Assembly: GCF_021209385.1 (NCBI RefSeq)
Contig: NZ_JAJOIL010000030.1
Span: 1 to 64,000 of the forward strand
Origin: Seleniivibrio sp.
Lineage (GTDB): Bacteria > Chrysiogenota > Deferribacteres > Deferribacterales > Geovibrionaceae
Reading direction: 5' to 3'
DNA: 64,000 nucleotides
The translations under genes and the position numbers were made by a program. Below the pieces are notes generated by a model that worked only from the letters and a program-made list of their open reading frames with translations, did not search any database and was not told the DNA's origin. This document shows, piece by piece, positions 36,370 to 56,402 of the stretch (positions within the stretch are counted from its first letter, which is position 1; each line of letters opens with the position of its first letter).

Positions 36370-37440
36370 TCAGAGTGTACTACTACAAATCGTAATAAAG
36401 TCTATTTTGTTGAATCTTGCGCTGATATTTGATGCCATTTCCTGCGGGAAGGGAAGTATACATTTTATCCCGTTTTCGGCATCTAAGGGGCTTATAATTT
36501 TTTTATCAAGGTGCAGTTTCCCCTGTTTAAAGGTGTCCTCGTCCAGAAAACCAACCAGCCTGTCGCCTATGTATCCGCCGAAAAAAGTGCTTACGGGGGC
36601 TGTGCCGAAAACGTACATCGGCTCGTTTATTTCGCTGACTGTTTTCAGATATTCGATATATTTTTCAAAATCCACCGTTTCTTTTTCCGGCTGTTTTGTG
36701 TCTCTTCCATGCATTGATGCAATTGCGGTTATCTCTTTTGCAACCTGTCCTTCCGGAAGGGCTACACATTTAAAATGCTCTTTAAGCAGGGAATACAGGC
36801 TGGCTTTTGAAAAGTGAACAACATGGTCTAAGACAGCCGTGTCGAATATGTTAGAGGAGATGTCTGGTACCTGAATCAGCAGAACGCCGTTTTCGGTGAG
36901 AAGCCCTTTAACATTCTCAAGGAACTCGTGGGGTTCTGTGATGTGTTCAAGAACGTGTATCATGCTTATCATAGAGAAGCGTTCGGATATTTTATCCGGC
37001 GGACAGGTGTAGAATTTTTTCACATCAACAGAGAAATCGGGGTCGCGCCCTATATCCTGCGCGAAAAGTTTAAGGTTTGGTTTGGCTTCGGACATAACTT
37101 TGAGGAAACTTCCGCTGCCTGTACCTATATCCAGCGCACTGCCTGTTTCGGGAAGGTGGTCTGCACAGTTTTTTTCTATCAGTTGTGCGCGGGTGACAGG
37201 TATCTTGCCGAAGGATTTCAGCTGGTCTCTGCCTTCGGTCAGTGGGTATGATCTGTAATGGGAGTAAAGCTCTGTTATATTAAGTTTATATGTCTCATCG
37301 GCTTTTTTTTGCAGCGTTCCGCATGAACCGCATCTGACCAGCGAAAATCCGAAAGGAAGAAATCTGCTGTCGGAAGATACGGAACAGCTTAAGGAGAGTA
37401 TTTCATGGGTGTCTCCGCTGCCGCAGAGGATACAGCCCAT
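36370..37440 (-). CDS. SAM-dependent methyltransferase with N-terminal zinc-knuckle-like motif
   Basis: 356 residues. Cys3/Cys6 (GCILCG) and Cys37/Cys40 (RCGSCG) form a putative metal site, as in sugar C-methyltransferases. SAM-binding motif I is SALDIGTGSGSFL near residues 101-113. SMIHVLEHITEPHEFLENV is the post-motif region of class I enzymes. The tail (FGTAPVSTFFGGYI) resembles the C-terminal associated domain of NDP-sugar C-methyltransferases. Such enzymes put branch methyls on deoxysugars. It starts 1 base after the stop of the SDR gene. Confidence 0.8.
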   Translation of the reverse strand: MGCILCGSGDTHEILSLSCSVSSDSRFLPFGFSLVRCGSCGTLQKKADETYKLNITELYSHYRSYPLTEGRDQLKSFGKIPVTRAQLIEKNCADHLPETGSALDIGTGSGSFLKVMSEAKPNLKLFAQDIGRDPDFSVDVKKFYTCPPDKISERFSMISMIHVLEHITEPHEFLENVKGLLTENGVLLIQVPDISSNIFDTAVLDHVVHFSKASLYSLLKEHFKCVALPEGQVAKEITAIASMHGRDTKQPEKETVDFEKYIEYLKTVSEINEPMYVFGTAPVSTFFGGYIGDRLVGFLDEDTFKQGKLHLDKKIISPLDAENGIKCILPFPQEMASNISARFNKIDFITICSSTL

Positions 37441-39200: not shown

Positions 39201-39863
39201 CTATTCAAAGTAAATGAAAGAATAGTCACCGTCGTATCCGAATTTCTCGAACCACCACTCCCATTCTTTCGGGCTGAAGAAGCACTCGCCTGTGAGCACC
39301 CAGCACATCAGGTTTACCTTCTCCTCTTCGTTTCTGTATGATTCAACAATGACGTATTTATCTTTTTTGCCCACTCTGGCAATCTCAAGAAGTGCCTTTT
39401 CAAGGTCGTAGCAGAAGAGGTTGTGCAGTGTGTTAAGTGAGATTATCAGGTCGAAGGATTTATCTTCAAAGGGGAGTTTTGCCGCGTCCGCAACCTGAAG
39501 GAAGGGTTTTACCTCCTCCTTTGCGTTTTCGATGGCATATTCGGAGATGTCTATTCCGGTAACTTTGATTCCGGGGACTAGCTGCATTATTTCATAGAGA
39601 AGAAATGCTTTTCCACATCCAATGTCGAGAACTTTGCTGTCTTTTGTAAGGTTGTATGCTTTAACAAGTTTTTCGGCGACAACCTTCCATCTTCCGTCAT
39701 ATTTGTATCCGCCGTAGCCGAATTTTCTGTCTCCGTCCCAATAGTCGTATCCGTATTTTTTCGCTTTCTCAATAGCCTGTGCTTTGGGATATTCGTTCAT
39801 TCTGCCCAGATAGTCTCTGGTTGTTCTTTTGTGCAGATCTGCCAGATGGTCGATGTATCGCAT
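39201..39863 (-). CDS. class I SAM-dependent methyltransferase
   Basis: 220 residues. A distinctive N-terminus MRYIDHLADLHKRTTRDYLG and a YDYWDGDRKFGYGGYKYDGR block precede SAM motif I (VLDIGCGKAFLLYEI, residues 78-92). It carries LISLNTLHNLFCYDLEKALL after motif II. This subgroup seems to travel with surface-glycan loci. In C. jejuni the phosphoramidate pathway ends with O-methylation by SAM enzymes, so this gene is one candidate for that step. That is inference from neighbourhood, not from motifs. Confidence 0.8.
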   Translation of the reverse strand: MRYIDHLADLHKRTTRDYLGRMNEYPKAQAIEKAKKYGYDYWDGDRKFGYGGYKYDGRWKVVAEKLVKAYNLTKDSKVLDIGCGKAFLLYEIMQLVPGIKVTGIDISEYAIENAKEEVKPFLQVADAAKLPFEDKSFDLIISLNTLHNLFCYDLEKALLEIARVGKKDKYVIVESYRNEEEKVNLMCWVLTGECFFSPKEWEWWFEKFGYDGDYSFIYFE

Positions 39864-40845: not shown

Positions 40846-41440
40846 TTGTACACTTCCGCAAAATTTCTGCTGCTGTTGCCCAGTCGGGGCAGGGGATTAT
40901 GTTTGACACCGGATAATCTGAAAATCCGTAGAGGAGGGGAAGAGTGGTCTTCGGAAAAAGTTTGTGTGTGAGTATATCCGGCAGATCGTCTATGAACATG
41001 GAACATTTAAGCTCCGCTATCTTCTGAATCTTTTCCTCTTTGGTCAGGCGGAAAAATATATTCTCTTTTCTGACCAACCCTTTGGATACTATGTTTTTGT
41101 TGATATAGCCCCACGCGGCTTCGTGGAGGTCGTATTTTTCACCCAGGTAGGGGTATCTGGTTTTGTGGCTTACTATGAACAGTTCCGCGCCAAGCTCTTT
41201 CGCTGTGCTGATGAAATCCCCGAATCCTTTGTTGAGAACGGCATATTCCATCCTCGCACCATAGACAAGTCCCTGAAGTCTTGTCCAGCTCTCTTCACGT
41301 CCGGAATCTATGAGCAGCCTTTTGACATCATCTTTTTTTGCCGCCTGCACACCCGAAAGGAGTCCTTCCTCCTCAGCACAGCGGCAGAAGGCGTTGTCAT
41401 AGTTGACGATTGTGTTGTCAAAATCCAGTCCTATTTTCAT
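40838..41440 (-). CDS. HAD-superfamily hydrolase
   Basis: 200 residues. Motif I GLDFDNTIVNYD supplies Asp6/Asp8; motif II is LFIVSHKT; the motif III Lys and motif IV CSMFIDDLPDIL follow. A small cap lies between motifs I and II. It is not clearly the GmhB phosphatase of heptose synthesis but could fill that step. It overlaps the transketolase C-subunit gene by 4 bases. Confidence 0.8.
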   Translation of the reverse strand: MKIGLDFDNTIVNYDNAFCRCAEEEGLLSGVQAAKKDDVKRLLIDSGREESWTRLQGLVYGARMEYAVLNKGFGDFISTAKELGAELFIVSHKTRYPYLGEKYDLHEAAWGYINKNIVSKGLVRKENIFFRLTKEEKIQKIAELKCSMFIDDLPDILTHKLFPKTTLPLLYGFSDYPVSNIIPCPDWATAAEILRKCTNG

Positions 41441-42354
41441 TTGCCACCGAGTATCCGTTTGCGTATGGTTTCACTGTCCAGACCGAAAAGCCCATGGGCA
41501 TAGCTCTGCGAACCTGTGGTCTTCATAAATGTGTCGTCTATGCCGCAGCGGATAAGTTTTGCGCCGGATATGCCGCTGTCGGCGAGCCATTCCGCAACGG
41601 AGCTTCCGCCGCCGCCTGCAAGAAAATGCTCTTCCACAGTGCAGACCTTTTTAAATTTGCTGAATATATCTTTAAGGAACTCTTCGTTCTGAGGTTTTAC
41701 CGTGTGATAGCTGTAAACTGCGGCTGATATGCCTTCATTCTCAAGCATTTTTGCCGCTTCGAGACACTGCGGAACAGTGTTGCCTATACCCAGCAGGCAG
41801 ACGTCTTTTCCGTCAATGACAGGTGTCGGGTTCCCTATAGCAAACGAATAAGGTTCGGGAAATATGACGGGTTCGCCCTTTTTGCCCAGACGCAGATAGG
41901 CGGGACCGTGGGAGTTGACTGCCGCCGCAAGGGCGAGCCTTGTTTCTGTGGCGTCGCAGGGACAGAGTACCCGCATGTTCGGCATGACCCTGAGAATAGC
42001 TATGTCCTCTGCTGAGTGGTGGGTCGGTCCGAGCGGTGCATATGAAAGTCCGGCTCCCGTTCCGGCGATTATCACATGCAGGTTGTGGTAGCAGAGGTCA
42101 ATTTTTATCTGTTCAAGACAGCGTGTCGTTGCAAACGGCGCGATAGTGTATATCACGGGGATGAAGCCTTCCAGTGCCAGTCCCGCCGCAACGGAAGCCA
42201 TGTTAGCCTCCGCAATTCCGCAGTTGTAGAATCTTTCAGGGTGTGCCGCCTTGAACCTGTCGAACATCCTGTTTCCGATGTCGCCGGAGAGCAGAACAAG
42301 TTTGTCGTTGGTTTCCGCCAGCTTCTCAAGCTCTTTTACGAATGCGTCACGCAT
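41437..42354 (-). CDS. transketolase, C-terminal (pyrimidine-binding) subunit
   Basis: 305 residues, second half of a split transketolase. It shows MRDAFVKELEKLAETNDKLVL at the start, then GIAEANMASVAAGLALEG with the catalytic Glu, HHSAEDIAILRVMPNMRVL, and a C-terminal domain. ATG at 42354 is chosen because GGGGG precedes it and it overlaps the end of the N-subunit gene by 8 bases; the longer frame has a low-complexity N-terminus that reads through that gene. It works as a complex with the neighbouring subunit. See the paired entry for role. Confidence 0.9.
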   Translation of the reverse strand: MRDAFVKELEKLAETNDKLVLLSGDIGNRMFDRFKAAHPERFYNCGIAEANMASVAAGLALEGFIPVIYTIAPFATTRCLEQIKIDLCYHNLHVIIAGTGAGLSYAPLGPTHHSAEDIAILRVMPNMRVLCPCDATETRLALAAAVNSHGPAYLRLGKKGEPVIFPEPYSFAIGNPTPVIDGKDVCLLGIGNTVPQCLEAAKMLENEGISAAVYSYHTVKPQNEEFLKDIFSKFKKVCTVEEHFLAGGGGSSVAEWLADSGISGAKLIRCGIDDTFMKTTGSQSYAHGLFGLDSETIRKRILGGK

Positions 42355-43147
42355 TGGCGGCCCCCAGTTCTTTTGCCGCCGCCGCAACCTCGTCCTTTGA
42401 CGGTGTGCGGTAGTGCCAGTTGTTGTCGTCTTCCATAAAAGAGACACCTTTACCCTTTACCGTATGCGCTATTATGACCAGAGGTTTTTCTCTGTCAGCA
42501 GGTGCAAGAGCTTTGAATATCTGGGTGTGGTCATGACCGTCTATCTCTGCTGTTTCCCATCCGAATGAGCGGAATTTGTCCGCAAACGGCTCAAGAGGCA
42601 TGATCTCTCTGCTTCTGTCGGTTGCCTGCCACTTGTTAAAATCTATTATAGCGGTAACATTGCTCAATTTTTTTGCCGATGCGAACATCACAGCTTCCCA
42701 AATAGAGCCTTCATTACATTCGCCGTCTCCGAGGAGCGTATAAAATCTTCTGCTGTCGTCTTTAATCTTCGCTGCCAAAGCCATTCCGCAGAGAATAGGC
42801 AGTCCGTGACCGAGGGAGCCTGTGGCTGCATGTATGCCTTTTATGCCATGAGCGGGAGGATGTTCACCAAAGAGCGAACCGTCACTGCCGTAGTCCTCCA
42901 TCTCCTTTTTAGAAATTATGCCTTTCTCTGCCAGAACAAAGTAAAGGGCGGGTGCGGCGTGACCCTTGCTCAGAAGGAATATATCATCATCAGACATCAC
43001 GGACAGGTGCAGGGTCGCAAGTATATCAGTGCATGAGAGGCATGAACCCAGATGGGGAACATGATTCATGGACGAGTTTTTTATAATCCCGTAACGTATT
43101 CTGTCGGATGCGTTTTTCAGTTCTGCGGCATCATACGAAGAGGTCAC
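42347..43147 (-). CDS. transketolase, N-terminal (TPP-binding) subunit
   Basis: 266 residues, first half of the split transketolase. Thiamine diphosphate motif FYTLLGDGECNEGSIWEAVM is intact, as are SKGHAAPALYFVLAEKG and ATGSLGHGLPI. Split pairs in glycan loci may make special sugars: either sedoheptulose-7-phosphate for heptose synthesis, or a two-carbon branch on a nucleotide sugar (inference). A housekeeping one-piece transketolase probably exists elsewhere. Overlaps its neighbours by 8 and 17 bases. Confidence 0.9.
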   Translation of the reverse strand: MTSSYDAAELKNASDRIRYGIIKNSSMNHVPHLGSCLSCTDILATLHLSVMSDDDIFLLSKGHAAPALYFVLAEKGIISKKEMEDYGSDGSLFGEHPPAHGIKGIHAATGSLGHGLPILCGMALAAKIKDDSRRFYTLLGDGECNEGSIWEAVMFASAKKLSNVTAIIDFNKWQATDRSREIMPLEPFADKFRSFGWETAEIDGHDHTQIFKALAPADREKPLVIIAHTVKGKGVSFMEDDNNWHYRTPSKDEVAAAAKELGAANA

Positions 43148-44204: not shown

Positions 44205-45194
44205 TCATTCCTTATGAATATAATAGTCGGGGAGAGTGTTCAGCAGTTCAAGATTTGCTTTTATCCAGTCGGCTGTTCTGGCTATCCCCTCGTCAAGCCC
44301 CACTGTGTCCTGCCATCCTGTCTCGGTTCTGAGTTTTGTGCTGTCCAGCAGATAGGCGCTGTCTTTGCCGGGTCTGTCGTCGGTTATCTCAACCGCGTCC
44401 GAATATTCTATGCCGAGATAGGCTGCTATCTTCTGTGTGAGCGCACGAATGGAGATAGTCTCTCTGGTGGCGATGTGGTAAATGTCGCCGATTTGTCCTT
44501 TTTCTGCAATTTTCAGTGTTGCGTCTGAAACGTCGTCTATGTGTATGAACGAGCGCACGGAATGTCCGCCGCCGTGGAGCGGCAGTTTTTTGCCTGAAAA
44601 AAAGCAGAGGAGCGCTTTGGGGATAATTCTGTAAAGCTGTTGATGTTCGCCGTAAACATTTGCCGCGCGGGTGAAAAGAACGGGGAATTTATAGGTATCG
44701 AAAAAGTTTTTAAGGCTCATATCTGCTGCGGCTCTGGATGTCGCATAGGGTGTGCTGGGGTTGTAGTTTCTGTTTTCGGTGACATCGCCGGAACAGCTGC
44801 CGTAAACTTCCGGTGTGGAGATATGGACGTATCTGTCCAGAAAGTCCAGATGTCTGAGCCTTTCGTGCAGGTTTATAGTTGAGAGAGTGTTTGTCATATA
44901 CCAGTGGTGAGGTTTTTGCCAGCTTTCGCCCACCATGCTCTGTGATGCGAAATTCACAACAGTGTCAATGCGCTCGGCTTTTGCCGCATCAATTATCTCG
45001 TTAAGATGCTTGTTGAGGTCATACGGGCGGAAAGTGAATCTGTTCAGATTCGGGTTTGACGAGTATTTAAGAAAAACCGGATTGGTGTCTGCGCTTCTGT
45101 TTATTCCCAAGACCTGTAAGCCTTCTTTGAGACATGTATCTGTGAAAGATGCTCCCGAAAAAGAGTTACATCCGATAACCATCACTTTATTCAT
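44205..45194 (-). CDS. NAD-dependent dehydratase/epimerase (GDP-mannose or dTDP-glucose dehydratase-like)
   Basis: 329-residue extended SDR. N-terminal MVIGCNSFSGASFTDTCLKE is the cofactor region, slightly degenerate. The active-site stretch is PSTPYATSRAAADMSLKNFF, where the usual catalytic Lys of YxxxK is Arg. TRAANVYGEHQQLYRIIPKA and SVRSFIHIDDVSDATL resemble sugar 4,6-dehydratases. From memory, the Arg recurs in this branch. It overlaps the GmhA gene by 4 bases. Confidence 0.78.
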   Translation of the reverse strand: MNKVMVIGCNSFSGASFTDTCLKEGLQVLGINRSADTNPVFLKYSSNPNLNRFTFRPYDLNKHLNEIIDAAKAERIDTVVNFASQSMVGESWQKPHHWYMTNTLSTINLHERLRHLDFLDRYVHISTPEVYGSCSGDVTENRNYNPSTPYATSRAAADMSLKNFFDTYKFPVLFTRAANVYGEHQQLYRIIPKALLCFFSGKKLPLHGGGHSVRSFIHIDDVSDATLKIAEKGQIGDIYHIATRETISIRALTQKIAAYLGIEYSDAVEITDDRPGKDSAYLLDSTKLRTETGWQDTVGLDEGIARTADWIKANLELLNTLPDYYIHKE

Positions 45195-45766
45195 TTTGAG
45201 CCGCCTTTGCTGATGTAATAAGAATATATTATGTGGTCGAGGATAAGGTGCATATCCTCCACCAGCCCGTATTCGCCTTTTGGGGTGTCGACATGGAACG
45301 AGATGTCGGCAAGCTCTTTAAGACGTCCTCCGCCGAAACCGGTGACGCCTATTATGGTTGCTCCGACCTCTGCCGCATATTCACAGGCACGGACGATATT
45401 GGGTGAATCGCCGCTGCACGAAATTGCGATGATAACATCATCCGGTTCAAGTCTGTTAACAAGCTGGCTTACGAAGATATTGTCGTATCCGACATCGTTG
45501 GCTAAAGCAGTTGTTACAGGCGTGTTGTCAGCAAGGCTTGATATGCGGAAATACATCAGTCCGCGTCTTTGAAGCCCGACACCGAGATCGTTTACCATAT
45601 GCGAAGCTGTTGCTGCACTGCCGCCGTTTCCCATAACGTATATATTGCTCTTCTTATGCTGAGCTGTTTCCAGTATCCTGATTATATCTGCAATGGCATT
45701 GCTGTCTATTCCGTCCAGAAGCCCCTTAAGTTTTTTAACGTAGTTTTCTATAAATTCATTAATCAT
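45191..45766 (-). CDS. gmhA: SIS-domain phosphoheptose isomerase
   Basis: 191 residues, GmhA type: converts sedoheptulose 7-phosphate to D-glycero-D-manno-heptose 7-phosphate. SIS motifs IYVMGNGGSAATASHMVNDL and IAISCSGDSPNIVRACEYA are present, along with the C-terminal LVEDMHLILDHIIYSYY helix carrying the family's His. ATG at 45766 follows AAAAGG; an upstream TTG at 45772 is less likely. The gene sits 10 bases after the cytidylyltransferase. C. jejuni also keeps gmhA in its capsule locus close to the phosphoramidate genes, so heptose plus phosphoramidate is a recurring pairing. Confidence 0.88.
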   Translation of the reverse strand: MINEFIENYVKKLKGLLDGIDSNAIADIIRILETAQHKKSNIYVMGNGGSAATASHMVNDLGVGLQRRGLMYFRISSLADNTPVTTALANDVGYDNIFVSQLVNRLEPDDVIIAISCSGDSPNIVRACEYAAEVGATIIGVTGFGGGRLKELADISFHVDTPKGEYGLVEDMHLILDHIIYSYYISKGGSK

Positions 45767-45776
45767 ATACAACCTT

Positions 45777-46535
45777 TTAACCTGTTATACTTTTTTGCAG
45801 TTCGGTGTTGTTTTGGTACGCTTCAAGGTCCTCTGCGGAATCGACCTCCAGCCATCCTCCGTTTATGAATACCGGAACTGCGGGGACACCCGTGTCAATA
45901 AGGCTTTGCAGAAGATCGGTCATGTACATTTTTACGGCATCGGGAGAATCTTGCAGAGCTTTTCTGTAGATTTCCTTCGCTTTTTTGAAAGTTTCAGGAG
46001 ACATCCGTATCAATCCGATGTACTGCCCCTGGATATCTTCCATCTTTTCAGGTTTTTTACCTAGTTCAACTATTCTGCCGTTCTCTATCTTCATGGTTTC
46101 CGCATCTTTCAGCGGATCTTCCATCCTCATCTGCCATAGTTTCTGCCATTGCGTATCAACGACAACCTGCATGTCGCCCGCTGCAGAGCAAAGCTTCTGC
46201 ATGATTTCAGGATTATAAATAATATCGGAATAACTGATGATCACATCATCCCCTTCTGCGAATGATGAAGCGCAGAAAAGAGTTTCTACCATGTTTGTTG
46301 TGCTGAAACGCTCGTTGAAAAAAAAGGTTATTCCTCTGTCTTTCAGGTGGTTGTGCAGAACTTCGCTTTTGTAGCCCGACACAACCGCAATATCACTGAA
46401 ACCTGCGTTCGCAGATACATCAAGTATGTGGTCTATCATGGGTCTGCCGTAAACTTCCACCATACATTTCGGTTTTTCATCTGTCAGAGGGCGCAGTCTT
46501 CGCCCTTCGCCGCCAGCAAGAATAATCAGTTTCAT
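45777..46535 (-). CDS. LicC-like nucleotidyltransferase; probable CTP:phosphoglutamine cytidylyltransferase (Cj1416-type)
   Basis: 252 residues. Nucleotide-binding start ILAGGEGRRLRPLT and KPKCMVEVYG. The DVIISYSDIIYNPEIM and AETMKIENGRIVELGKKPEK stretches, and IQGQYIGLIRMSPETF, are like C. jejuni Cj1416 as I recall it. Cj1416 couples L-glutamine phosphate to CTP, giving CDP-L-glutamine (gamma-glutamyl-CDP-amidate). Alternative: a plain phosphocholine cytidylyltransferase (LicC). The neighbours (glutamine kinase, amidohydrolase, CysC-like kinase) make the phosphoramidate role the better reading. Overlaps the amidohydrolase gene by 4 bases. Confidence 0.82.
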   Translation of the reverse strand: MKLIILAGGEGRRLRPLTDEKPKCMVEVYGRPMIDHILDVSANAGFSDIAVVSGYKSEVLHNHLKDRGITFFFNERFSTTNMVETLFCASSFAEGDDVIISYSDIIYNPEIMQKLCSAAGDMQVVVDTQWQKLWQMRMEDPLKDAETMKIENGRIVELGKKPEKMEDIQGQYIGLIRMSPETFKKAKEIYRKALQDSPDAVKMYMTDLLQSLIDTGVPAVPVFINGGWLEVDSAEDLEAYQNNTELQKSITG

Positions 46536-47149
46536 TCAAAAAACCTTCTTATAAGTTCTATGTCGTTCTCCTGTGTACCTCGTTCGGGGTGCCACATGAT
46601 ACCGAGAATTTTCAGATACTCGTGTTCAAAAGATTCGATACAGCCGTCACCCGACCTGCTCAGTATTCTGAGTCCGAACCCTGGTATATCTATCTCATAA
46701 TTATGAAAAGAGTTTACATTTTTAAATCTTTCCGTCAGAAATGAAAACCTGCCGCTGCTATGGGCAAGATCGTGACGTGTGCCTGCATGTCCTTCCGCTG
46801 TCTTGAGTTCTCCGCCGAAATAACCATTAATGAACTGCATCCCTCTGCATACTCCGAGAACAGGTATTCCTGCTTCATTACACACATCCATTACTTTTTT
46901 CTCATGACTGTCGCGCATCGCCGACAAATTGGAGTCTGACACGGAGGAAAGGTCATTGCCTCCGCTTAATATCACTCCGTTTAAACCGACGGATTGAATG
47001 AAGGAGCTGATATCCTCCGTATACGGAACAGGACACGGCAGATATCCTGCGCAGTTCAGCAGGCTGAACCAGCTTATATCCAGACAGGCTCTTATTTCGG
47101 TGTATTCTTCCATATTAACAAATCTTTGGGTGATACCTATCTTTTTCAA
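46532..47149 (-). CDS. class I glutamine amidotransferase-type hydrolase; probable gamma-glutamyl-CDP-amidate hydrolase (Cj1417-type)
   Basis: 205 residues. Catalytic Cys is in LGVCRGMQFINGYFGG, with the His/Glu pair in LGIMWHPERG. The start ITQRFVNMEEYTEIRACLDI and ILSGGNDLSSVS recall C. jejuni Cj1417, which cleaves gamma-glutamyl-CDP-amidate to glutamate and cytidine diphosphoramidate. The longer frame overlaps the kinase gene heavily. The TTG at 47149 follows AAGGTGAT and overlaps the kinase stop by 4 bases, and gives the correct N-terminus. It could otherwise be called a PuuD-like gamma-glutamyl hydrolase. Confidence 0.83.
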   Translation of the reverse strand: MKKIGITQRFVNMEEYTEIRACLDISWFSLLNCAGYLPCPVPYTEDISSFIQSVGLNGVILSGGNDLSSVSDSNLSAMRDSHEKKVMDVCNEAGIPVLGVCRGMQFINGYFGGELKTAEGHAGTRHDLAHSSGRFSFLTERFKNVNSFHNYEIDIPGFGLRILSRSGDGCIESFEHEYLKILGIMWHPERGTQENDIELIRRFFE

Positions 47150-49497
47150 GCTATCACCTTCAGCGTTCTGTTCCCTGCGTCCAGTTCGAGTTTTTTTGCA
47201 GATACGCATTTCTTATATATTCGTGAGCCGCAGCCTATTGCGGCGGGGATACCAAGTTCGTGGCATCTTATGGCCATGTGCGAGTTCGCGCCGCCGAAAC
47301 AGGTTACAAGCCCGCTGATTCCGCATGTGAAGAGAAAGTCATATCCGGGGTCTGCGGAAGGAAGGCAGACTATCTTGCCCTGAAGAGCTGACGAGTTTAT
47401 CTCCCCGTCTGCAACAACGCCCGCCTGCACGCGTCCCAGAGTTACAAAATTCGGATTCTCCTGAGCTATCATAAAGCTGTAGATGTCGTCCTCGCGTGTT
47501 ATAAGAGCGGGAAGTTTAACGGACAGGGTATAATCATACGCTGTACGGTTAGTTCTGATATCTTCCATAAAAATATCTTTAACATCCTGATGGTTAATGG
47601 ATGAATACATTCTTTTTATGGTGTTGATGTTCAGAAATGCCAGATATTCCGGTTCAAGACCGACCCTCGCACCGAATTCGCCGATGAGCTTGAGAACCAT
47701 GCTGACCGATCTGCTGAATATCAGTTTTGAATATTCTCTGCCCTCTATAGCGTCTTTGATGAACCTTACAAGTTCTCTGCCTTTGCAGACAAAGCCTTCC
47801 GAATCAAGCAGCTGATCCAGAACGGAATAGAATTCTGAAGAAAAATCAAAATTATTTTCTTTATCGGGTACTTCGTTATCGGCAACGCCGAAATAGGTCT
47901 CAAAACTTTCGTCGTATCGTTTTGACAGAATGTCGTAAGTTCCGGGTCTGAGATGTCCGTATTTTTCAAGAAAAACATTTTTGTCCAGATTGTGCAGATC
48001 AGAATTTATCTGCCTGCTGACGGTGTTCAGAGAAGAGAGAAACATCGCCTTTTCATGTGAAGAGATAAGTCCGCACTCCTCGAATGAATTTAAAAACTGA
48101 ACACCGATGAATGCTGCTCTGGCTATCCCCGCAAAGGGCAGGGTGCCGTATCTTTTGCAGTATTCCAGATGCCAGTATATTTTACCGACAATGGGCAGTT
48201 CGCTTTCACATATTTCTTTATATTTTTCATTGAGCGTCTCTATCCGTGCCATATCGGAGCGGAAAAGCCCGCCGTCCTCTTTCATTATCCTGTTGGTAAG
48301 TTCCAGCAGAGAATTCCGTATCCCGGCTGTTTCGTCTTTTGTGAATCCGCAGTTGCAGAGCGTTTCCAGTTTCTTTTGGATTCCCGGATACCAGCATGAA
48401 AAAACTATTTCAAACTCAACCTTGTCATGAAGGAATTTGTTATCTTCCAGCTTGCGCAGGTAATATCCGGCGAGTTTTTCCGCTGTGCGGTCATCAAGAT
48501 TTTTAGGAATAAACGAGTTAAACGAAACCCTTGCATCAATATAGGGTATACCTAAAAAAGAGACCATCAGCGGGTGTGAGCGGAGATTGCGATATCCGTA
48601 ATTATCTCTTTGGTATGCCCAGATGCTGTCCGTTACAAGTTCCATATAAAGGGAGAGCGACAGCATTTTCGGGCGCAGTCCTATTATTTCTGCGGGGTTC
48701 CAGTCGGGCATAACGCCGAGGATGGTTTTGTCCCCGAGCAGTCCCGGATGTCTGGAATTAAGCTTCTTTATTTTTTTGTGTATCTTGTTAAGCGAATCGG
48801 AGAGATTCAGCGTCGAAAATGCTGCATCCGGAACAGTAGTGATTTTTCGTACCTGAAAAATGTAAACTGTCTCCTCAGCGTATGCAAATTCTATGTCAAG
48901 CCTTTGTTCACCCGTAAGATACATGATCTCTTCGCATGAACCGATGACTTTTTTAATGAAATTGTCAGCGCACATGTCTTTTGCTTCTTTGAAAACTATG
49001 CATGTTTCGGTATTGTTTTTCCCTGCCGTAACAGTGTCGGTGTAGCCGTCTGCAGAGTAGTTTATGATGTAATAACCGACCCCTGTTTCCGGATCTTCCG
49101 TAAAAGCTACGCCGCAATATTCCGTGCCGGTCAGCATCGGCTGGATGAATACTTCATTTTCTCCGGAATTGTCATAGCTGTCTATGACCTCCCTTACAGC
49201 GGAAATGATGCTTTCTTTATCCGGTGAAACGTTAAGCACACTGCGGAAAACTCCGGCACATGAACTTTCCGCACAGTCTTCGGACATTGCGGATGACCTT
49301 ATTATTACGTCTGTTTTACCGAACATAGACACGGCTTTGTCTGCCACGGCGTTTTCATTTTCAAAAAAATCGGAGACTTTGAAGCAGAAAAGCGGGAGTA
49401 TTACAGATTGTTTAACGCGATCTTTCAGCGCAAAAAGATTCTGAGCTTTGGAAGACAGTATTATTTTTTCATTCTTTTCAGAAGTTTCTGTTTTCAT
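47146..49497 (-). CDS. PEP-synthase-fold enzyme; probable L-glutamine kinase (Cj1418-type)
   Basis: 783 residues. An N-terminal ATP-grasp nucleotide domain (VIIRSSAMSEDCAESSCAGV, RLDIEFAYAEETVYIFQVRK) is followed by a large central domain and a C-terminal swivel domain with the phospho-accepting His740 (CFGGANSHMAIRCHELGIPA). The PEP-binding barrel of PEP synthase/PPDK is absent, so this is not an ordinary PEP enzyme. In C. jejuni, Cj1418 of this build phosphorylates the amide nitrogen of L-glutamine with ATP, the first step of phosphoramidate synthesis (established knowledge). The other pathway genes flank it, overlapping by 4 bases downstream. Confidence 0.85.
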   Translation of the reverse strand: MKTETSEKNEKIILSSKAQNLFALKDRVKQSVILPLFCFKVSDFFENENAVADKAVSMFGKTDVIIRSSAMSEDCAESSCAGVFRSVLNVSPDKESIISAVREVIDSYDNSGENEVFIQPMLTGTEYCGVAFTEDPETGVGYYIINYSADGYTDTVTAGKNNTETCIVFKEAKDMCADNFIKKVIGSCEEIMYLTGEQRLDIEFAYAEETVYIFQVRKITTVPDAAFSTLNLSDSLNKIHKKIKKLNSRHPGLLGDKTILGVMPDWNPAEIIGLRPKMLSLSLYMELVTDSIWAYQRDNYGYRNLRSHPLMVSFLGIPYIDARVSFNSFIPKNLDDRTAEKLAGYYLRKLEDNKFLHDKVEFEIVFSCWYPGIQKKLETLCNCGFTKDETAGIRNSLLELTNRIMKEDGGLFRSDMARIETLNEKYKEICESELPIVGKIYWHLEYCKRYGTLPFAGIARAAFIGVQFLNSFEECGLISSHEKAMFLSSLNTVSRQINSDLHNLDKNVFLEKYGHLRPGTYDILSKRYDESFETYFGVADNEVPDKENNFDFSSEFYSVLDQLLDSEGFVCKGRELVRFIKDAIEGREYSKLIFSRSVSMVLKLIGEFGARVGLEPEYLAFLNINTIKRMYSSINHQDVKDIFMEDIRTNRTAYDYTLSVKLPALITREDDIYSFMIAQENPNFVTLGRVQAGVVADGEINSSALQGKIVCLPSADPGYDFLFTCGISGLVTCFGGANSHMAIRCHELGIPAAIGCGSRIYKKCVSAKKLELDAGNRTLKVIA

Positions 49498-49535
49498 CTT
49501 ATCCTGCGAGGGTCTGCGATGTGTCCTTAAGCTGC

Positions 49536-50045
49536 TTATGGTAAAACAAGTTTCAGGATTTTTTCTACATTGCCTTCTATGTCTGACATAGCAGTATTCT
49601 CAAGAACCAGATCGGCTTTTTCCGGCTTATCATAAGCCAAATCAACGCCTACGATGTTTTTGGCTTTGCCTTCCATAGCCATGGAATACAACCCCTTCTG
49701 GTCGCGTTTTCTCAGTTCATCCATGCTGCATTCGAGGAATATTTCAAAATATTCAGTGTGGGAATTTCTATTGAACTCATGAATTTCAGAGTAAAGGGAC
49801 ATGGTCGCGCAGATGACGTTGATATCCTGTTCAACAAGGAATTTGCATAAGCCGGCTATTCTTCTGGCATTTTTGATGCGTCCGTCCGGGTCGTGCCCCA
49901 GATCGTCCCCGAAGATATTCCGTATTCTATCTCCGTCGAGAAATACTGTGGCAGGCGAAAGTGCTTTGAAACGTTCGTAGATAATATTCCCTATCGTACT
50001 TTTTCCGCTTCCCGCGAGTCCGGTTATCCAGATGAGTTTAGCCAA
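49536..50045 (-). CDS. adenylylsulfate-kinase-like P-loop kinase; probable cytidine diphosphoramidate kinase (Cj1415-type)
   Basis: 169 residues. P-loop ITGLAGSGKST (Gly9-Thr17) and FLDGDRIRNIFGDDLGHDPD, as in CysC. DGRIKNARRIAGLCKFLVEQ and ICATMSLYSEIHEFNR match the C. jejuni Cj1415 type as I recall. That enzyme phosphorylates the 3'-hydroxyl of cytidine diphosphoramidate. No sulfate-assimilation genes are nearby, which argues against true APS kinase. It is the first gene of the four-gene phosphoramidate set and is preceded by a 69-base gap. Confidence 0.83.
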   Translation of the reverse strand: MAKLIWITGLAGSGKSTIGNIIYERFKALSPATVFLDGDRIRNIFGDDLGHDPDGRIKNARRIAGLCKFLVEQDINVICATMSLYSEIHEFNRNSHTEYFEIFLECSMDELRKRDQKGLYSMAMEGKAKNIVGVDLAYDKPEKADLVLENTAMSDIEGNVEKILKLVLP

Positions 50046-50114: not shown

Positions 50115-51299
50115 TTAAAGAGCTGATAGAAGAACCGAAAAGACGCTCTCTTTCAGACCTGCCGACAGAATATTCTTTTCACTTAATTTTGCGGATATTT
50201 TTTTAAACACTTCCGAATCGCTCACGGTTATGGCGCACATGCCATACTCATTCTGTTTTACTTCGGACATGCGTACGGCAGATATCTGCGGGTTGTCGTC
50301 GATAATGTCATATTTGATGTTGAATTTATCGAGGAGACGACAGAACAGACTGCCCAGAAATCCATAGCCGAATACTGCATTTTTACCTTCGGGTTTGAAA
50401 ATATGTTCTGCTGCAGCAACTTCTGCTTGAAAATATTCTTCAATTCCCGCACATCTTTTTTCAATAGAAAGAAAGGCGGTTTTGACATCTATGCCGGAAA
50501 CGACAAGTTTCATGATAATTTCCAGAAGTTTCGGCACAAAATGCAGTTCATCGTATCTCTGAAGTTCTTCGTTTTTGAATTTGTTTCTGGCTTTCCAATA
50601 TCCGTCCAGTGAGCACATGAGTTTTGCGGGATACTTTTCCATCTCAGCAAACCCGTAACTGTCGTCACTTTGCACCCAGCAGGCAAAAACTTTGTTAATA
50701 TAAGCTGTTTTACAGTCAGAGGCATGAATTGAAAGAACTATTTCCGCATCGGAAGAGAGGTTGTCGTCTGCAACATCCGAATATATTTTTTTCAATATAT
50801 TTCTTTCAGTAAATGCGGCGTTGAACGACAGAAAAAGCTTATGATCTAGTAATATCCTCTTTCCTGAATAAGTGCCGGAAGGCAATCCGTGGCAGTTCTT
50901 TTTTAAAAACGTTCCGTCATCGTTTACGATATCGGAACAGCCTGTGATATAGCCGATATCTGTACTTGATTGCGCCGCCACATAAACTTCGTCCAAACAG
51001 TCCGGATCGGTAAAATAGTCGTCATCGCACAGGTAGATGCAATATTTGCCTGTTGCATATTCCATTGCCATCTTTTTACTGTTTGCAACCGAACCAAGAT
51101 TTTTTTCATTTTTGAAATATCTGATACGTTTATCTTTTTTTGTCAGTTCTTCTGCAACCTGAGCTGTTTGGTCTGTGGAGCAGTCGTCGGAGATTATTAC
51201 CTCAAAATCTGCAAAGGTCTGGCTCATGACGCTTTCAACAGCTCTCGGTAACAGATCACACCTGTTGTATGTTGCTATCAGAACAGAGAAGAAAGGCAT
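50115..51299 (-). CDS. GT2 glycosyltransferase, tandem copy 3 of 3
   Basis: 394 residues. GT-A family 2 part: SVLIATYNRCDLLPRAVESV, VIISDDCSTDQTAQV and CIYLCDDDYFTD (metal-binding Asp). A C-terminal Rossmann-like segment near 300-330 reads NAVFGYGFLGSLFCRLL. The layout is the same as the next two genes upstream, so the trio arose by duplication. Specificity is unknown; each copy may add a different sugar. Confidence 0.85.
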   Translation of the reverse strand: MPFFSVLIATYNRCDLLPRAVESVMSQTFADFEVIISDDCSTDQTAQVAEELTKKDKRIRYFKNEKNLGSVANSKKMAMEYATGKYCIYLCDDDYFTDPDCLDEVYVAAQSSTDIGYITGCSDIVNDDGTFLKKNCHGLPSGTYSGKRILLDHKLFLSFNAAFTERNILKKIYSDVADDNLSSDAEIVLSIHASDCKTAYINKVFACWVQSDDSYGFAEMEKYPAKLMCSLDGYWKARNKFKNEELQRYDELHFVPKLLEIIMKLVVSGIDVKTAFLSIEKRCAGIEEYFQAEVAAAEHIFKPEGKNAVFGYGFLGSLFCRLLDKFNIKYDIIDDNPQISAVRMSEVKQNEYGMCAITVSDSEVFKKISAKLSEKNILSAGLKESVFSVLLSAL

Positions 51300-51300
51300 G

Positions 51301-52530
51301 TCAGTTGTCCCCGCCTTTAAGGAAAAGGGCGAATATGTAATCGTTGAATCCGCATATACTGGCTGCGCCGAGTGAAGTCAGTTCTTCATGTATTTTTTCC
51401 GAAACCGTTAAGTTTCCTATGCCTATGATGATATTATAATCTGCTGTATTAATTGAAGAGATTTTACGGACAGGTATTCCTGAAACTTCCCCGGTTATGC
51501 CGTCATCAAGAAAGAAAGCTGTCTTTATGCCTGCTTTTTTAAGGTACGCGGCAACCTCTTTTCCCGCTATGCCGGCTCCGTATATGGCGAACCCTTTGCC
51601 GTTTGCGTATCCTCGGCACGTCAGTCCGCTTATCTTTTCATGCAGGTATTCACCCAGCAGAGGATTTCTCTCGCTGAACAGTTTTTCAACTTCTGCCGCG
51701 TCTCTTATACCTTCTTTATAGAGGGCGCATAAAAAATCGTATAACGGGTTTGTGAGAAAATATTTTTCAACGTGTGCCATTTCGTCGGCTGTGAATGTTC
51801 CGTCTTCGAGGATTATACGGTAAAGATTCCAGTAGCAGTCAACCGCTCTGATAAAAAATACGGCACTTCTGTTTGCCGCCGCAAATCCTGTTCCGCCCGG
51901 ATGGTGAACCCATGCAGATGCAGTAATGTTCAGATGGGCAACTTTGGAATACCAGTAGGTTTTGAAGAGAATTTCAAGTCCCGCTTCCCAGTTTGTAGAG
52001 GAGATACTCCGATATACCTTTTTAACAAGTTCCGTTTCGATAAATGCGGCATTTATATTCGGTACCAGACGCCTGTGGGTTCTGAAATAGTCCTTCCCCT
52101 GAAATATGCCGTATCCTTCAAGGTTGGCAGTTATTTCACTGTTATCATGATAATTGACAACTTTTGAATCCGCTATGACAACGCCGACTTCCGGATCTTC
52201 AAATATGGCGTCTGCGGCTGCTTTGAAAAATGAACTGTCAAAAAGATAGTCATCATCACAGAGAAACAGAACGTATTTACCTGCGGCATGATCATAGAGC
52301 AGTTTTTTAGTGTTCTCAACCGGACCGAGATTAAAGTTGTTTCTGTAATATTTTATTCTTTTGTCATTACCGGATATTTCCTGCATAACGGACATTGTAT
52401 CATCTGTTGAACAATCGTCGCATACAATGACTTCAAAATCATCGAAATCCTGTGCCATAACGCTTTTCAGAGCATTGATAAGCAAAGCTGATCTGTTGTA
52501 TGTCGGGATGAGAATTGAGAATAAAGGCAT
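51301..52530 (-). CDS. GT2 glycosyltransferase, tandem copy 2 of 3
   Basis: 409 residues. SILIPTYNRSALLINALKSV, VIVCDDCSTDDTMSV and VLFLCDDDYLFD define GT2. The C-terminal domain has GFAIYGAGIAGKEVAAYLKK, a dinucleotide-binding-like glycine motif. ATG at 52530 follows AAGGTAACGCC and lines up with its paralogues; the longer frame adds an unlikely N-terminus. It starts 1 base from copy 3. Confidence 0.85.
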   Translation of the reverse strand: MPLFSILIPTYNRSALLINALKSVMAQDFDDFEVIVCDDCSTDDTMSVMQEISGNDKRIKYYRNNFNLGPVENTKKLLYDHAAGKYVLFLCDDDYLFDSSFFKAAADAIFEDPEVGVVIADSKVVNYHDNSEITANLEGYGIFQGKDYFRTHRRLVPNINAAFIETELVKKVYRSISSTNWEAGLEILFKTYWYSKVAHLNITASAWVHHPGGTGFAAANRSAVFFIRAVDCYWNLYRIILEDGTFTADEMAHVEKYFLTNPLYDFLCALYKEGIRDAAEVEKLFSERNPLLGEYLHEKISGLTCRGYANGKGFAIYGAGIAGKEVAAYLKKAGIKTAFFLDDGITGEVSGIPVRKISSINTADYNIIIGIGNLTVSEKIHEELTSLGAASICGFNDYIFALFLKGGDN

Positions 52531-52546
52531 GGCGTTACCTTGCTCC

Positions 52547-53767
52547 TTAAACATCATCAAACAAGTCAAAAACAAAATTTTCAAATTTGCTTATGTGTTC
52601 GGCATTAATACTTTCGAGCCGATCTTGTATATCTACTGATATTTTTCTGTCGCCGACACCTATTACGATATTATACTGTTTCCAGTCCACAGAATCGGGT
52701 TTAACAATTTCAATTCCGCAGATGCTCCCTTCTTTTCTGTCATCGGCTATATAAGCAAGGGTAAATCCGCCGTTGATGAGACATTCCGCCGCCTCTTTGC
52801 CTGCTACACCTGCGCCGTATATGGCGAAAGGTTTTTCTTTATCAAACAGTCCGGAACGTCTTTCCATGATTGTTTTTCTGACATAAGAACCCAGCTCCAT
52901 ATCTCTTTCGGCAAAAATATCAGATGTTTCCGCAATACTCTTAATATTGCCGCCGACAAGAACCGTAAGGAATTCTTTCAGAGGGCGGATCATATAATTA
53001 TATTCCATTTCCATCTTTTCGGTCTCTGTAAAATAGCCGTCATTGCGAAACAATTTAAACAGTTTCCAGTAGGCGTCGATAGCTCTGACATAGATTTTCG
53101 GGTCTTTTATTGCGACGGCATTTCCGGTTCCTTCGGAATGGAACCGCCAGACGAAAGCCATGTTGCTGATATGGGCAACTGTTGTGTAGTAATAGGCCAG
53201 AAGCATTATCTCCAGACCCGATTCCCAGTTTGAATCAGCCACCTGCGCATAATAGCTTTGCATGAGCTCTGTCTTTAAAAAGGCTGTGCCGAAGTTAGGC
53301 ACAATATTGTCATATTTTCTCAGATAGTCTTTGCCGTAGAAAACACCGTATTCTTTTTGTATTCCGTCCAGAAATGAACCGTCGAAGGTATTTAAAATTC
53401 TGCTGTTGGCGACAACCATACCCGTTTCGGGATTTTTACGGACAACATCGGCAACAGATCTGAAAAAAGTTTCATCGGTAAAATAATCATCGTCGCACAG
53501 AAATATTGTGTATTCGCCTTTTGGGTAATCCATGCACATTTTTCTGCTGTTTCTGACCGGTCCCATATTTTCGCTGTTGCGGTAATACCTTATTCTGCTG
53601 TCGCCTGCGGCAATGTCTCTTGCTTTTTCAGAGCAGGCTTCGTTTGAGCAGTCATCTGAAATTATTATTTCAAAATCACCGAAGTCCTGACAAAGAACAC
53701 TGTCCACAGCTTTTACAAGCATTTCCGGTCGGTTGTATGTTGCTATCAATATGGAAAAAAGAGGCAT
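52547..53767 (-). CDS. GT2 glycosyltransferase, tandem copy 1 of 3
   Basis: 406 residues. SILIATYNRPEMLVKAVDSV, IIISDDCSNEACSEK and TIFLCDDDYFTD define GT2. The C-terminal domain carries PFAIYGAGVAGKEAAECLIN and YNIVIGVGDRKISVDIQ, close to copy 2. The start at 53767 is set by GGAGGA 5 bases upstream. These tails resemble small sugar-nucleotide-binding Rossmann domains; they may hold a donor or regulate the enzyme (inference). Confidence 0.85.
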   Translation of the reverse strand: MPLFSILIATYNRPEMLVKAVDSVLCQDFGDFEIIISDDCSNEACSEKARDIAAGDSRIRYYRNSENMGPVRNSRKMCMDYPKGEYTIFLCDDDYFTDETFFRSVADVVRKNPETGMVVANSRILNTFDGSFLDGIQKEYGVFYGKDYLRKYDNIVPNFGTAFLKTELMQSYYAQVADSNWESGLEIMLLAYYYTTVAHISNMAFVWRFHSEGTGNAVAIKDPKIYVRAIDAYWKLFKLFRNDGYFTETEKMEMEYNYMIRPLKEFLTVLVGGNIKSIAETSDIFAERDMELGSYVRKTIMERRSGLFDKEKPFAIYGAGVAGKEAAECLINGGFTLAYIADDRKEGSICGIEIVKPDSVDWKQYNIVIGVGDRKISVDIQDRLESINAEHISKFENFVFDLFDDV

Positions 53768-53790
53768 TGCTCCTCCGAGGTGCATTTTAT

Positions 53791-53820
53791 TAATTATCGT
53801 CTGAAAAACGGGGATAATTA
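53791..53820 (-). other. small hairpin between formyltransferase and GT2 genes
   Basis: TAATTATC (53791-53798) and GATAATTA (53813-53820) are perfect 8-base inverted copies with a 14-base loop, overlapping the stop codon of the upstream gene. It has no T-tract. It may slow transcription or protect the mRNA end in an otherwise tightly packed operon. Confidence 0.3.
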
Positions 53821-54504
53821 CCGGATATTGTTATTGGATATCTGATCCTGTCTGTTAAGGGCTATTTTTTTGAGTACCGGATGAATCTTATAAAACATCA
53901 TGCTTTTGTTTTGCGGTTGAGGTGTCTGGCTGAATGAGCCGTTTCTGTCGTACTCCTTTAAAACGTCGGCAAGCAGTTCCGAACGTATCCTGCTGTCGTA
54001 TGAACCGTCAACACTGCATCCGCATATTTCAAACTCTTTTGCGGCGACGATACATCCGCCGTCGATTGATTTGTCCATTATGAATGCAGTGGCGTACGCC
54101 TTTCCTTCGTTTAGCAGGGAATAGTAAATAGTCGTACTGCCTCTGTAAAGCGGCAGCAGACCCGGATGGATATGCAGAATCCTGAATCTGCTGACATGAT
54201 GTTCCTTAACTATGCCCTTTCCGGCGAATATGTAAAAATCAGCCCCTTCAGCAACATGCTCAAGGGCAGAGTTGATGTCGTCTGCTTCGATGTTTATTAT
54301 CGGTATGTTTTCGGTGAGCTCTTCAAAGCTGATTTCCGGTTTTTTATGCAGTTTTTCGCAGAAGCCATAACCTGGTGAAACTGCTTTCTTTGCGCCGTAA
54401 AGGTATATCTGTGCGGGGAGAAAACCCACATTCCGCATGGCGTAGAGGTACATAAACAGTCTTGAAGAAGGTGTGCCTATTACAGAACAGTTAATGGTTT
54501 TCAT
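53818..54504 (-). CDS. formyltransferase-family protein
   Basis: 228 residues. The active-site stretch RILHIHPGLLPLYRGSTTIY matches the formyl transferase core (His plus LPxYRG), and ATAFIMDKSIDGGCIVA contains the downstream Asp. Enzymes of this fold take formyl from N10-formyl-tetrahydrofolate to an amino sugar in glycan pathways such as N-formylperosamine. The N-terminal and C-terminal parts are divergent, so activity is not certain. It overlaps the next gene upstream by 14 bases. Confidence 0.72.
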   Translation of the reverse strand: MKTINCSVIGTPSSRLFMYLYAMRNVGFLPAQIYLYGAKKAVSPGYGFCEKLHKKPEISFEELTENIPIINIEADDINSALEHVAEGADFYIFAGKGIVKEHHVSRFRILHIHPGLLPLYRGSTTIYYSLLNEGKAYATAFIMDKSIDGGCIVAAKEFEICGCSVDGSYDSRIRSELLADVLKEYDRNGSFSQTPQPQNKSMMFYKIHPVLKKIALNRQDQISNNNIR

Positions 54505-54955
54505 TCACAAGCTCTTCAAATATTTTTAATTCGTTCATGAGCGAAAATGCGAAAAGGATCAGCTGTTCTCCGGAAAGCCGTTCATAAGCCGCTGATATCA
54601 GAGAGTCGTTCATCTTTAAAAGGGTATTGAAACATATGAGAAGCTCAGGCTTTCCAACTGAAAGACACCTTGCCGAAAGTGCATATGAAGCCGAAGTTAT
54701 CAGCTTTATATCATTGTCATAATCTGCTTTGTCCAGTCTTTTTGATATCTCGAATCTTTTCAGGAGAGTCATATCAAAGACATCTGCCTTTGGCGCTTCT
54801 TCCGGCAGTTTGCCGCAAAGAACTTCAATTTTCCTGATAGCTTCCGCTCTGTTCTCTCTGTATGAATCCAGAAAATCGGGCGCGGAACAGTCGCAGAACG
54901 AATATTTTTCAGGCTCAATAAGAAGGTCTCTTTCGGTGTACGGATAGCCGCTCAT
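54491..54955 (-). CDS. hypothetical protein
   Basis: 154 residues, soluble, mostly helical in appearance, with two Cys near residue 21-23 (FCDCSAPDF). I do not recognise it. It begins 2 bases after the CDP-glycerol-type transferase gene and overlaps the formyltransferase gene by 14 bases, so it is translated within the operon. A helper subunit is possible. Confidence 0.6.
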   Translation of the reverse strand: MSGYPYTERDLLIEPEKYSFCDCSAPDFLDSYRENRAEAIRKIEVLCGKLPEEAPKADVFDMTLLKRFEISKRLDKADYDNDIKLITSASYALSARCLSVGKPELLICFNTLLKMNDSLISAAYERLSGEQLILFAFSLMNELKIFEELVNENH

Positions 54956-54956
54956 G

Positions 54957-56402
54957 TCACACCATTTTCCAGCCGGAGGCGTTTGTACCTTTTATAATGG
55001 ATTCAAAGTTCTCTATGAAATAATCTTCTGATTTACCCGGATTAAAGAAAAAGTTTTCTCTGAACTCCATAATATGTTTCTCGTCGAATTTTCTGAAAGC
55101 GCTTTCTATACCCTGCTTAAGTTCATTTACGGAGGATACGACAACTCCGACCTCGTTGCGGAATCTGAAATAGGCGTCTGTAAAAGCCGTTTCTCCTACA
55201 AAGGCGGTGATGTCCGGATTTCCCCTCTGGAAAAAGACAACGGGGCGAAGTTGTGTCAGAGCAAAATTATACCCTGTGGATGAGTGATCAGTTACTGTCA
55301 GAACAGATCTTGACATAGCTTCTTTTTGAGAATTATTGCCGGAGTCCAGAACCACCCTGCCTGACAATGCGGTCTCTTCCATTATCCTTGCGATGTGTTC
55401 TGAGGCATCTTTCAGTGAACCCGGGTGGGGTCTGAAAATTATCCGTTTATCTTCAAATATTCTTGCCAGTTCATTTAAGATATCTGCGCTGTATTTCGGA
55501 AACGATGTGTAATCTGCAAAAGTGGAGGAACCGGGAACGTATTTGCCTGCCGGAGCATACAATACGCTGTCCCTTGCATCTGAAATGTCAGAGGTTTCCT
55601 TCAGATTTATATCGACGCTTGGGTATCCGCACGGGATCAGCACGGTGGATTTTTCTCTGCGGGTATAATCCGAGACGGTTTCAAGAAGCCTGATAGTGCT
55701 TGGTCTCATACAGGCGATATAGTCGAATCCCTCAAAAATCTCTGTGAATCTTGGTATGTTGGCTCTGTTGTCCTTGTCAACAAGGTCAGTGCTGACGAAG
55801 CTTTCAAATGTGAACATGCCGTGGGGGAAATGTACTCTTCGGGACGCTTTCGGAAGTTTAGTGAACATATCGGTTGTGATGAAGACATCAATATTCTTAA
55901 GGTTTTCCACCATCCAGCCCTCAATAGGAGCGATAAACTGAAATTCTTCAGAGTAGCGGTCTTTGGAATCAACTTCCGAAAAAACCGTTACTCCGTAACC
56001 CATCTCTTTGAGTCTGAAAGGGATATCGCCCAGGTGCCTGCGATACATGTTGTGCTGGAAATATATACCTATGCTGCCTTTTTTCCCTTTTGCCATGTTC
56101 TCTGCGATACGGTCAAGGGTTGTGACAATGAAGTCTTTGTAGTGCGTATGATTTGTAATTCCCTTTTTTCGGAGATTTTCCGTGATAGCTTCCGCATACG
56201 TATCTGAATTGACTATCACACAGATGTTTTCGCGCTTTATCCTGTCGGAAACATCGTCAAGTCCCGCCACATCAACACCGTCGAAGCAGGTTCCGCATTT
56301 TGAATCGTCAATTATGAATTCAAGCTCCATGTCAGCGTATTTTTCGGCAATTTTTCTGACTGACGAATAGTGTATTCCTGACGGGTAAAGAGCATATTTC
56401 AT
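54957..56402 (-). CDS. CDP-glycerol glycerophosphotransferase-like protein (TagB/TagF type)
   Basis: 481 residues. About 1-110 is a small Rossmann-like domain (ALYPSGIHYSSVRKIAEKY, ICVIVNSDTYAEAI), possibly nucleotide-binding. About 130-470 resembles CDP-glycerol:glycerophosphate transferases: RVHFPHGMFTF, RIIFRPHPGSLKD and TVTDHSSTGYNFALTQLRPVVFF, where the family has its conserved His and Ser residues. This class moves a phospho-group from a CDP carrier, so in this locus it is a candidate for transfer of phosphoramidate from its cytidine carrier (inference). Alternatively it transfers a glycerophosphate. Confidence 0.75.
   Translation of the reverse strand: MKYALYPSGIHYSSVRKIAEKYADMELEFIIDDSKCGTCFDGVDVAGLDDVSDRIKRENICVIVNSDTYAEAITENLRKKGITNHTHYKDFIVTTLDRIAENMAKGKKGSIGIYFQHNMYRRHLGDIPFRLKEMGYGVTVFSEVDSKDRYSEEFQFIAPIEGWMVENLKNIDVFITTDMFTKLPKASRRVHFPHGMFTFESFVSTDLVDKDNRANIPRFTEIFEGFDYIACMRPSTIRLLETVSDYTRREKSTVLIPCGYPSVDINLKETSDISDARDSVLYAPAGKYVPGSSTFADYTSFPKYSADILNELARIFEDKRIIFRPHPGSLKDASEHIARIMEETALSGRVVLDSGNNSQKEAMSRSVLTVTDHSSTGYNFALTQLRPVVFFQRGNPDITAFVGETAFTDAYFRFRNEVGVVVSSVNELKQGIESAFRKFDEKHIMEFRENFFFNPGKSEDYFIENFESIIKGTNASGWKMV

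Follow-up and report, generated by a model that had tools for sequence, protein, structure and literature searches.

Four adjacent genes on the minus strand of the 64-kb stretch of Seleniivibrio DNA analysed here (hereafter the window) very probably encode the Campylobacter route to an activated phosphoramidate donor, judging by their sequences. The four open reading frames lie at 45777-50045, as the initial annotation had described, and their products, here termed K, H, C and S, are all 42-46% identical to the proteins of a K-H-C-S cluster in a named Campylobacter jejuni genome. All reactions given here for this organism are inferred from the pathway of C. jejuni, the chemistry of which was used as a template (PMC6429109) and the steps of which are also taken from Raushel-group papers cited in PMC11924219. 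K would convert glutamine and ATP to N-phospho-glutamine, C would couple CTP to this intermediate, H would cut off glutamate to leave CDP-phosphoramidate, and S would add a 3'-phosphate, making 3'-phospho-CDP-phosphoramidate the most likely product; a transferase would then pass the P-NH2 group to a sugar of a surface glycan from the surrounding ~37-kb locus. The modest new point concerns a variant of this cassette in which two further genes, D and F, occur without the usual methyltransferase, and the window locus belongs to that variant.

The four predicted donor-pathway proteins

The predicted L-glutamine kinase K (Cj1418 type; 47146-49497, minus strand) combines an ATP-grasp with a phospho-His domain (Pfam PPDK_N and PEP-utilizers), and the PEP-barrel domain is absent in the Pfam scan. 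K scores 944 bits against PRK05849/NF004508, the Cj1418-like NCBIfam family (cut-off 501), and 56 bits against true PEP synthase; it is 44% identical to the C. jejuni kinase across its length and weakly similar in sequence to PEP synthases in the PDB. His740 lies within the motif GGANSHMAIR; its counterpart in the C. jejuni kinase is residue 737, the catalytic histidine of Cj1418, and this phospho-His is kept in 80 of 81 aligned kinases, the remaining one being gapped there. The Pfam domains and this alignment agree with the initial description of K as a PEP-synthase-like enzyme without the PEP barrel. In the kinase tree K groups weakly with environmental Campylobacterota (support 84).

The predicted gamma-glutamyl-CDP-amidate hydrolase H (Cj1417 type; 46532-47149, minus strand) has a class I amidotransferase fold (Pfam Peptidase_C26/GATase) and contains both of the motifs ascribed to it earlier, LGVCRG and MWHPER. 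The listed reading frame (46532-47209) starts inside the kinase gene, and the likelier start, from the local sequence, would be a TTG at 47149-47147 that overlaps the K stop codon TGA (47148-47146); from this start H would have ~205 amino acids, and its C. jejuni counterpart, to which it is 42% identical, has 200. The best NCBIfam match is NF045546 at 173.5 bits, below the equivalog cut-off of 250, followed by GMP synthase (61.6), with the PuuD-type hydrolase at 25.6; in the controls, the C. jejuni protein reaches 330.7 bits on NF045546 and the relative in locus L012 reaches 102. The Cys/His/Glu triad is kept in 71 of 71 relatives. The predicted phosphoglutamine cytidylyltransferase C (Cj1416 type, LicC-like; 45777-46535, minus strand; Pfam NTP_transferase) is 45% identical to the C. 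jejuni protein and shares its position after H. Its best PDB match is LicC (1jyk), over the N-terminal third only, and no equivalog-level NCBIfam match was obtained either for C or for the C. jejuni control.

The predicted CDP-phosphoramidate 3'-kinase S (Cj1415 type, CysC-like; 49536-50045, minus strand; Pfam APS_kinase) scores 201 bits on PRK05541 (cut-off 127; C. jejuni control 291) versus 128 on apsK, under the cut-off of 138.7 (both NCBIfam), and is 46% identical to the C. jejuni protein. In the CysC tree S falls in a supported clade with the C. jejuni kinase (98/97), apart from E. coli CysC (99/86), and the two share a loop, (T/A)(M/I)S(L/M)(F/Y)xE, where E. coli CysC reads FISPHRAE. S is the sole CysC-like gene of the genome. 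The initial annotation had seen no sulfate-assimilation genes near S, and in the whole genome (96.6% complete) neither a PF01747 ATP sulfurylase nor, with a query that had no positive control, a match to E. coli CysD was found. In a Campylobacterales bin (L015:8712-9998) a single 428-aa open reading frame joins a CysC-like kinase to a Cj1419-type methyltransferase, a fusion that supports a joint role for the two enzymes.

In 71-81 relatives, the phospho-His site of K, the triad of H and key residues of C vary little or not at all. The four proteins fall with the Cj1415-Cj1418 types instead of with true PEP synthase, LicC, PuuD or APS kinase, and the family assignment first proposed for them is supported by the NCBIfam scores, by the 42-46% identities and by the kinase and CysC trees.

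The surrounding locus

The host genome is a 2.9-Mb draft in 42 contigs. From ~26 kb to 63 kb of the window nearly all large open reading frames lie on the minus strand, and this run of ~37 kb, flanked by a cinA-like gene (24994-26220) and by recA (63331 on), reads as a surface-glycan locus, judging by its predicted glycosyltransferases, epimerases, nucleotidyltransferases, split transketolase and carbamoyltransferase. Genes are transcribed in the order G, D, F, three GT2 glycosyltransferase genes, S, K, H, C and a SIS isomerase. G lies next to D with hardly a gap, and there are overlaps between D and F, between K and H (at TTGA) and between H and C. The three GT2 genes (50115-53785, minus strand, between F and S; Pfam GT2 for two, the third assigned from its sequence) probably form one transcription unit with the cassette. 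Scans for promoters and terminators returned sites no more numerous than in shuffled sequences. The G+C content is 43% at 48-56 kb compared to 46-48% across most of the window, which fits acquisition from elsewhere.

Several other genes of the window deserve mention in their own right. The products of the three GT2 genes end in a Rossmann-like tail (PglD_N in one, by Pfam), which makes each a fusion of a glycosyltransferase with a nucleotide-binding domain. Directly downstream of C lies the SIS-domain (GmhA-like) sugar-phosphate isomerase (45191-45772, minus strand; Pfam SIS_2), 57% identical to a protein encoded close to the cassette in L016, a locus from Arcobacteraceae. Adjoining it and two SDR genes, inside the glycan locus, is a transketolase split into N- and C-terminal genes (41437-43147), both halves of which have relatives near the cassette in L024 and L031 and which may be the source of an unusual sugar precursor. 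A carbamoyltransferase of the NodU/CmcH type (58080-60575), transcribed in the same direction as the cassette, suggests that the glycan is also carbamoylated. A second PPDK_N (PEP synthase ATP-binding) protein of ~500 aa is encoded at 2704-4197.

Distribution of the cassette

P-N bonds are rare in nature. When 84,980 species genomes were scanned once with a kinase profile made from three sequences, at least 588 candidate stretches were returned, and relatives of the kinase are encoded in at least 518 loci, the best 80 of which span over a dozen phyla (Campylobacterota, Bacillota, Pseudomonadota, Spirochaetota, Bacteroidota, Planctomycetota, Verrucomicrobiota, Nitrospirota, Nitrospinota, Omnitrophota, Fibrobacterota, Ignavibacteriota, Balneolota and others). 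The occurrence of the module outside Campylobacter, which the initial annotation highlighted, is therefore not unusual, and these counts contradict a 2022 review in which the glutamine kinase was called specific to C. jejuni (PMC9561416). The kinase is usually accompanied by the hydrolase and the cytidylyltransferase, and most of ~80 loci, spread over many phyla, share the order kinase-hydrolase-cytidylyltransferase, a gene grouping far beyond chance. With this spread over more than a dozen phyla, phosphoramidate glycans may be a common and overlooked surface modification.

A separate broad sample contained the kinase in 7 of 385 genomes. Among 45 sampled relatives within the window's order, four of the same genus included, the kinase was absent, so the cassette was either gained by the window's lineage or lost by the others. 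Viral contigs yielded no relatives of the kinase with a single-sequence query, which reaches close relatives only. Gene neighbourhoods were compared over 85 loci, made up of 80 loci from the scan, the window and genomes from the samples, and not a random sample.

Predicted fate of the phosphoramidate group

Among the 85 loci, 59 carry an S-type kinase, 51 a Cj1419/1420-type methyltransferase near the kinase and 15 a CysQ-like phosphatase. An HMM built from the 51 methyltransferase loci found no SAM methyltransferase of the Cj1419/1420 type in the 64-kb window, and for this reason we predict that the group is not O-methylated here, the unmethylated product being somewhat favoured. Nor was a sulfotransferase or a DUF2972 transferase (a family of Campylobacter and Helicobacter proteins adjoining the cassette) found among the scanned proteins of the locus, though S is present. 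The description of the module as complete holds for synthesis of the donor only: the locus has neither the O-methyltransferase that accompanies the kinase in 51 of the 85 loci nor a transferase of the known kinds.

The neighbours of S-bearing loci (n=121 proteins) include Sulfotransfer_3 most frequently (10), then Sulfotransfer_1 (8) and DUF2972 (7), compared to Glyphos_transf (5), DUF2972 (4) and Sulfotransfer_3 (4), with no Sulfotransfer_1 listed, in loci without S (n=81 proteins). The one CysQ-like neighbour tested is a CysQ by TIGR01331, above the cut-off. Together, the sulfotransferase neighbours of S loci and the CysQ-like genes of 15 loci fit a PAPS-like 3'-phosphonucleotide donor, and the sulfotransferase neighbours suggest, by analogy with sulfation, that the 3'-phosphorylated donor may pair with a sulfotransferase-like transferase. 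A specific tie between CysQ and S was rejected, as CysQ is not enriched in S loci (p=0.54).

Within the Seleniivibrio genome itself, the search for a CysQ-like protein gave just a distant match of the inositol-phosphatase type (33%), and no Sulfotransfer_1 protein was found. The single Sulfotransfer_3 protein (contig 33, 34377-35846; L096:8378-9850) is unlinked to the cassette and was ruled out as the transferase, since all four congeners have it and all four are without the kinase. This sulfotransferase-fold protein is kept across the genus, while the genome yielded no ATP sulfurylase.

The transfer of a phosphoramidate group needs attack on the beta-phosphorus of a CDP donor with release of CMP, and the leading candidate for this step is therefore G (54957-56402, minus strand; PF04464, E 4e-8), a CDP-glycerol glycerophosphotransferase-like protein, which we propose tentatively as the phosphoramidate transferase. 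G-type proteins occur in 15 of the 85 kinase loci and are enriched both in loci with F (5 of 7 versus 10 of 78, p=0.0015) and in loci that have no methyltransferase (p=0.007); these p-values, like those given below for D and F, take no account of common descent or of the fact that the loci were not chosen at random.

The D-F pair and a possible non-methyl variant

F (53818-54504, minus strand; Pfam Formyl_trans_N) is a formyltransferase-fold protein, the AlphaFold model of which (mean pLDDT 79) has ArnA and sugar N-formyltransferases as its best Foldseek matches (E down to 4e-13). The usual catalytic set of the formyltransferase family is Asn-His-Asp, and the position of the usual Asn is occupied by His in all six aligned rows of F. 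The paired gene D (54491-54955, minus strand) encodes a small protein with no Pfam or NCBIfam match and no confident fold match in the PDB; its model is helical with a mean pLDDT of 71, the other four D models having 40-57.

With HMMs for D and F that were built from few members, F was detected in 7 of the 85 kinase loci (the window, G051/L012, L060, L081, L085, L092 and G113), D in six of these seven and in none of the other loci (Fisher p=1.6e-8), and the methyltransferase in none of the seven (p=0.001). Those F loci that are represented in the kinase tree fall on separate branches of it. Rheinheimera mesophila is among the F-bearing species and Fusibacter bizertensis among those with the methyltransferase; both are cultured and non-pathogenic. 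S, D and F are adjacent in that order in L060 and G113, and L085 has the order G-like, D, F, K, H, C. Three genomes of the 385-genome sample carry F at E<=1e-22, and in each of them the kinase lies within a few kb of it on that contig; two of the three had fed the profile, G113 alone among the sampled genomes being independent of it, and the chance of this independent genome having the kinase is ~1-2%. These statistics are strong hints, drawn from 7 loci in the case of the D-F association, and we propose that D and F are accessory parts of a non-methyl phosphoramidate variant. It is conceivable, although rather unlikely, that D, F and G form a second, non-methyl branch in which the CDP-glycerol-transferase-like and formyltransferase-fold enzymes act on the CDP-phosphoramidate donor or on the group once transferred, with an N-formylated or otherwise carbon-substituted phosphoramidate, hitherto unseen, as a possible outcome. 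The D-F variant hints at an uncharacterised decoration.

The donor could instead be made here and the decoration methylated and transferred in the Campylobacter manner, by enzymes that are encoded away from the locus or escaped recognition, with D, F and G serving another part of the glycan, F by formylating an amino sugar and G by adding glycerol phosphate. The usual substrates of formyltransferases with this fold are nucleotide-amino sugars, PF04464 proteins usually use CDP-glycerol, and the window does encode other methyltransferases (39201-39863 and 36370-37440); several F loci likewise carry other, unrelated methyltransferases, so the group may be methylated by a different enzyme. On the other hand, F at E<=1e-22 was found in none of the 378 sampled genomes without the kinase, several loci from separate branches of the kinase tree have the D-F pair immediately next to S or K, and the window has no Cj1419-type methyltransferase, all of which leaves this account plausible but short of probable.

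That the phosphoramidate donor is destined for, say, a small molecule and not for a surface glycan is quite improbable: the assignment of the transferase is uncertain and some members of the family sit among mixed-strand genes with no obvious glycan locus, but in the window the genes are part of a series on one strand that also encodes glycosyltransferases, sugar epimerases, nucleotidyltransferases and a SIS isomerase. Least tenable of all is a gathering of ordinary PEP synthase-like, glutamine amidotransferase, LicC and APS kinase enzymes for sulfation or phosphocholine metabolism, which the broad Pfam names and weak PDB similarity to PEP synthases and LicC would allow, but against which stand scores (PEP synthase 56, PuuD-type 26, apsK 128, under its cut-off) far below those of the MeOPN-type families, the lack of an ATP sulfurylase match in the genome and the recurrence of the same cluster with C. 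jejuni orthologues.

Comparison with known systems

A 2019 review knew the O-methyl phosphoramidate modification only from Campylobacter (PMC6429109). The C. jejuni MeOPN cassette (cj1415-cj1418 with cj1419-cj1422) resembles the window in all four donor proteins, in their catalytic residues and in its surface-glycan setting. The window differs in having no cj1419/1420-type methyltransferase, in that no transferase of the cj1421/1422 (DUF2972) type was seen nearby, and in its extra D-F pair and CDP-glycerol-transferase-like G; moreover, S precedes K in the window, whereas it follows C in C. jejuni. The initial annotation supposed a phosphoramidate-modified glycan to be undescribed for this kind of bacterium; outside Campylobacter, such a glycan has a precedent in its unmethylated form in the LPS of Xanthomonas campestris and Shewanella MR-4, as cited in PMC3907429. 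The product predicted for the window would likewise be a phosphoramidate without an O-methyl group, a likeness in the kind of product.

Sulfate activation by CysC, PAPS sulfotransferase and CysQ offers a further parallel. In both systems a CysC-fold kinase adds a 3'-phosphate, and loci related to the cassette carry sulfotransferase-family proteins and CysQ-like nucleotidases; this sulfation logic of a 3'-kinase, a sulfotransferase-family enzyme and CysQ, shared by many loci, provides a testable rule for finding the transferases. The window differs from sulfate activation in that no ATP sulfurylase was found in its genome and in that S belongs to the clade of the Campylobacter CDP-phosphoramidate kinases.
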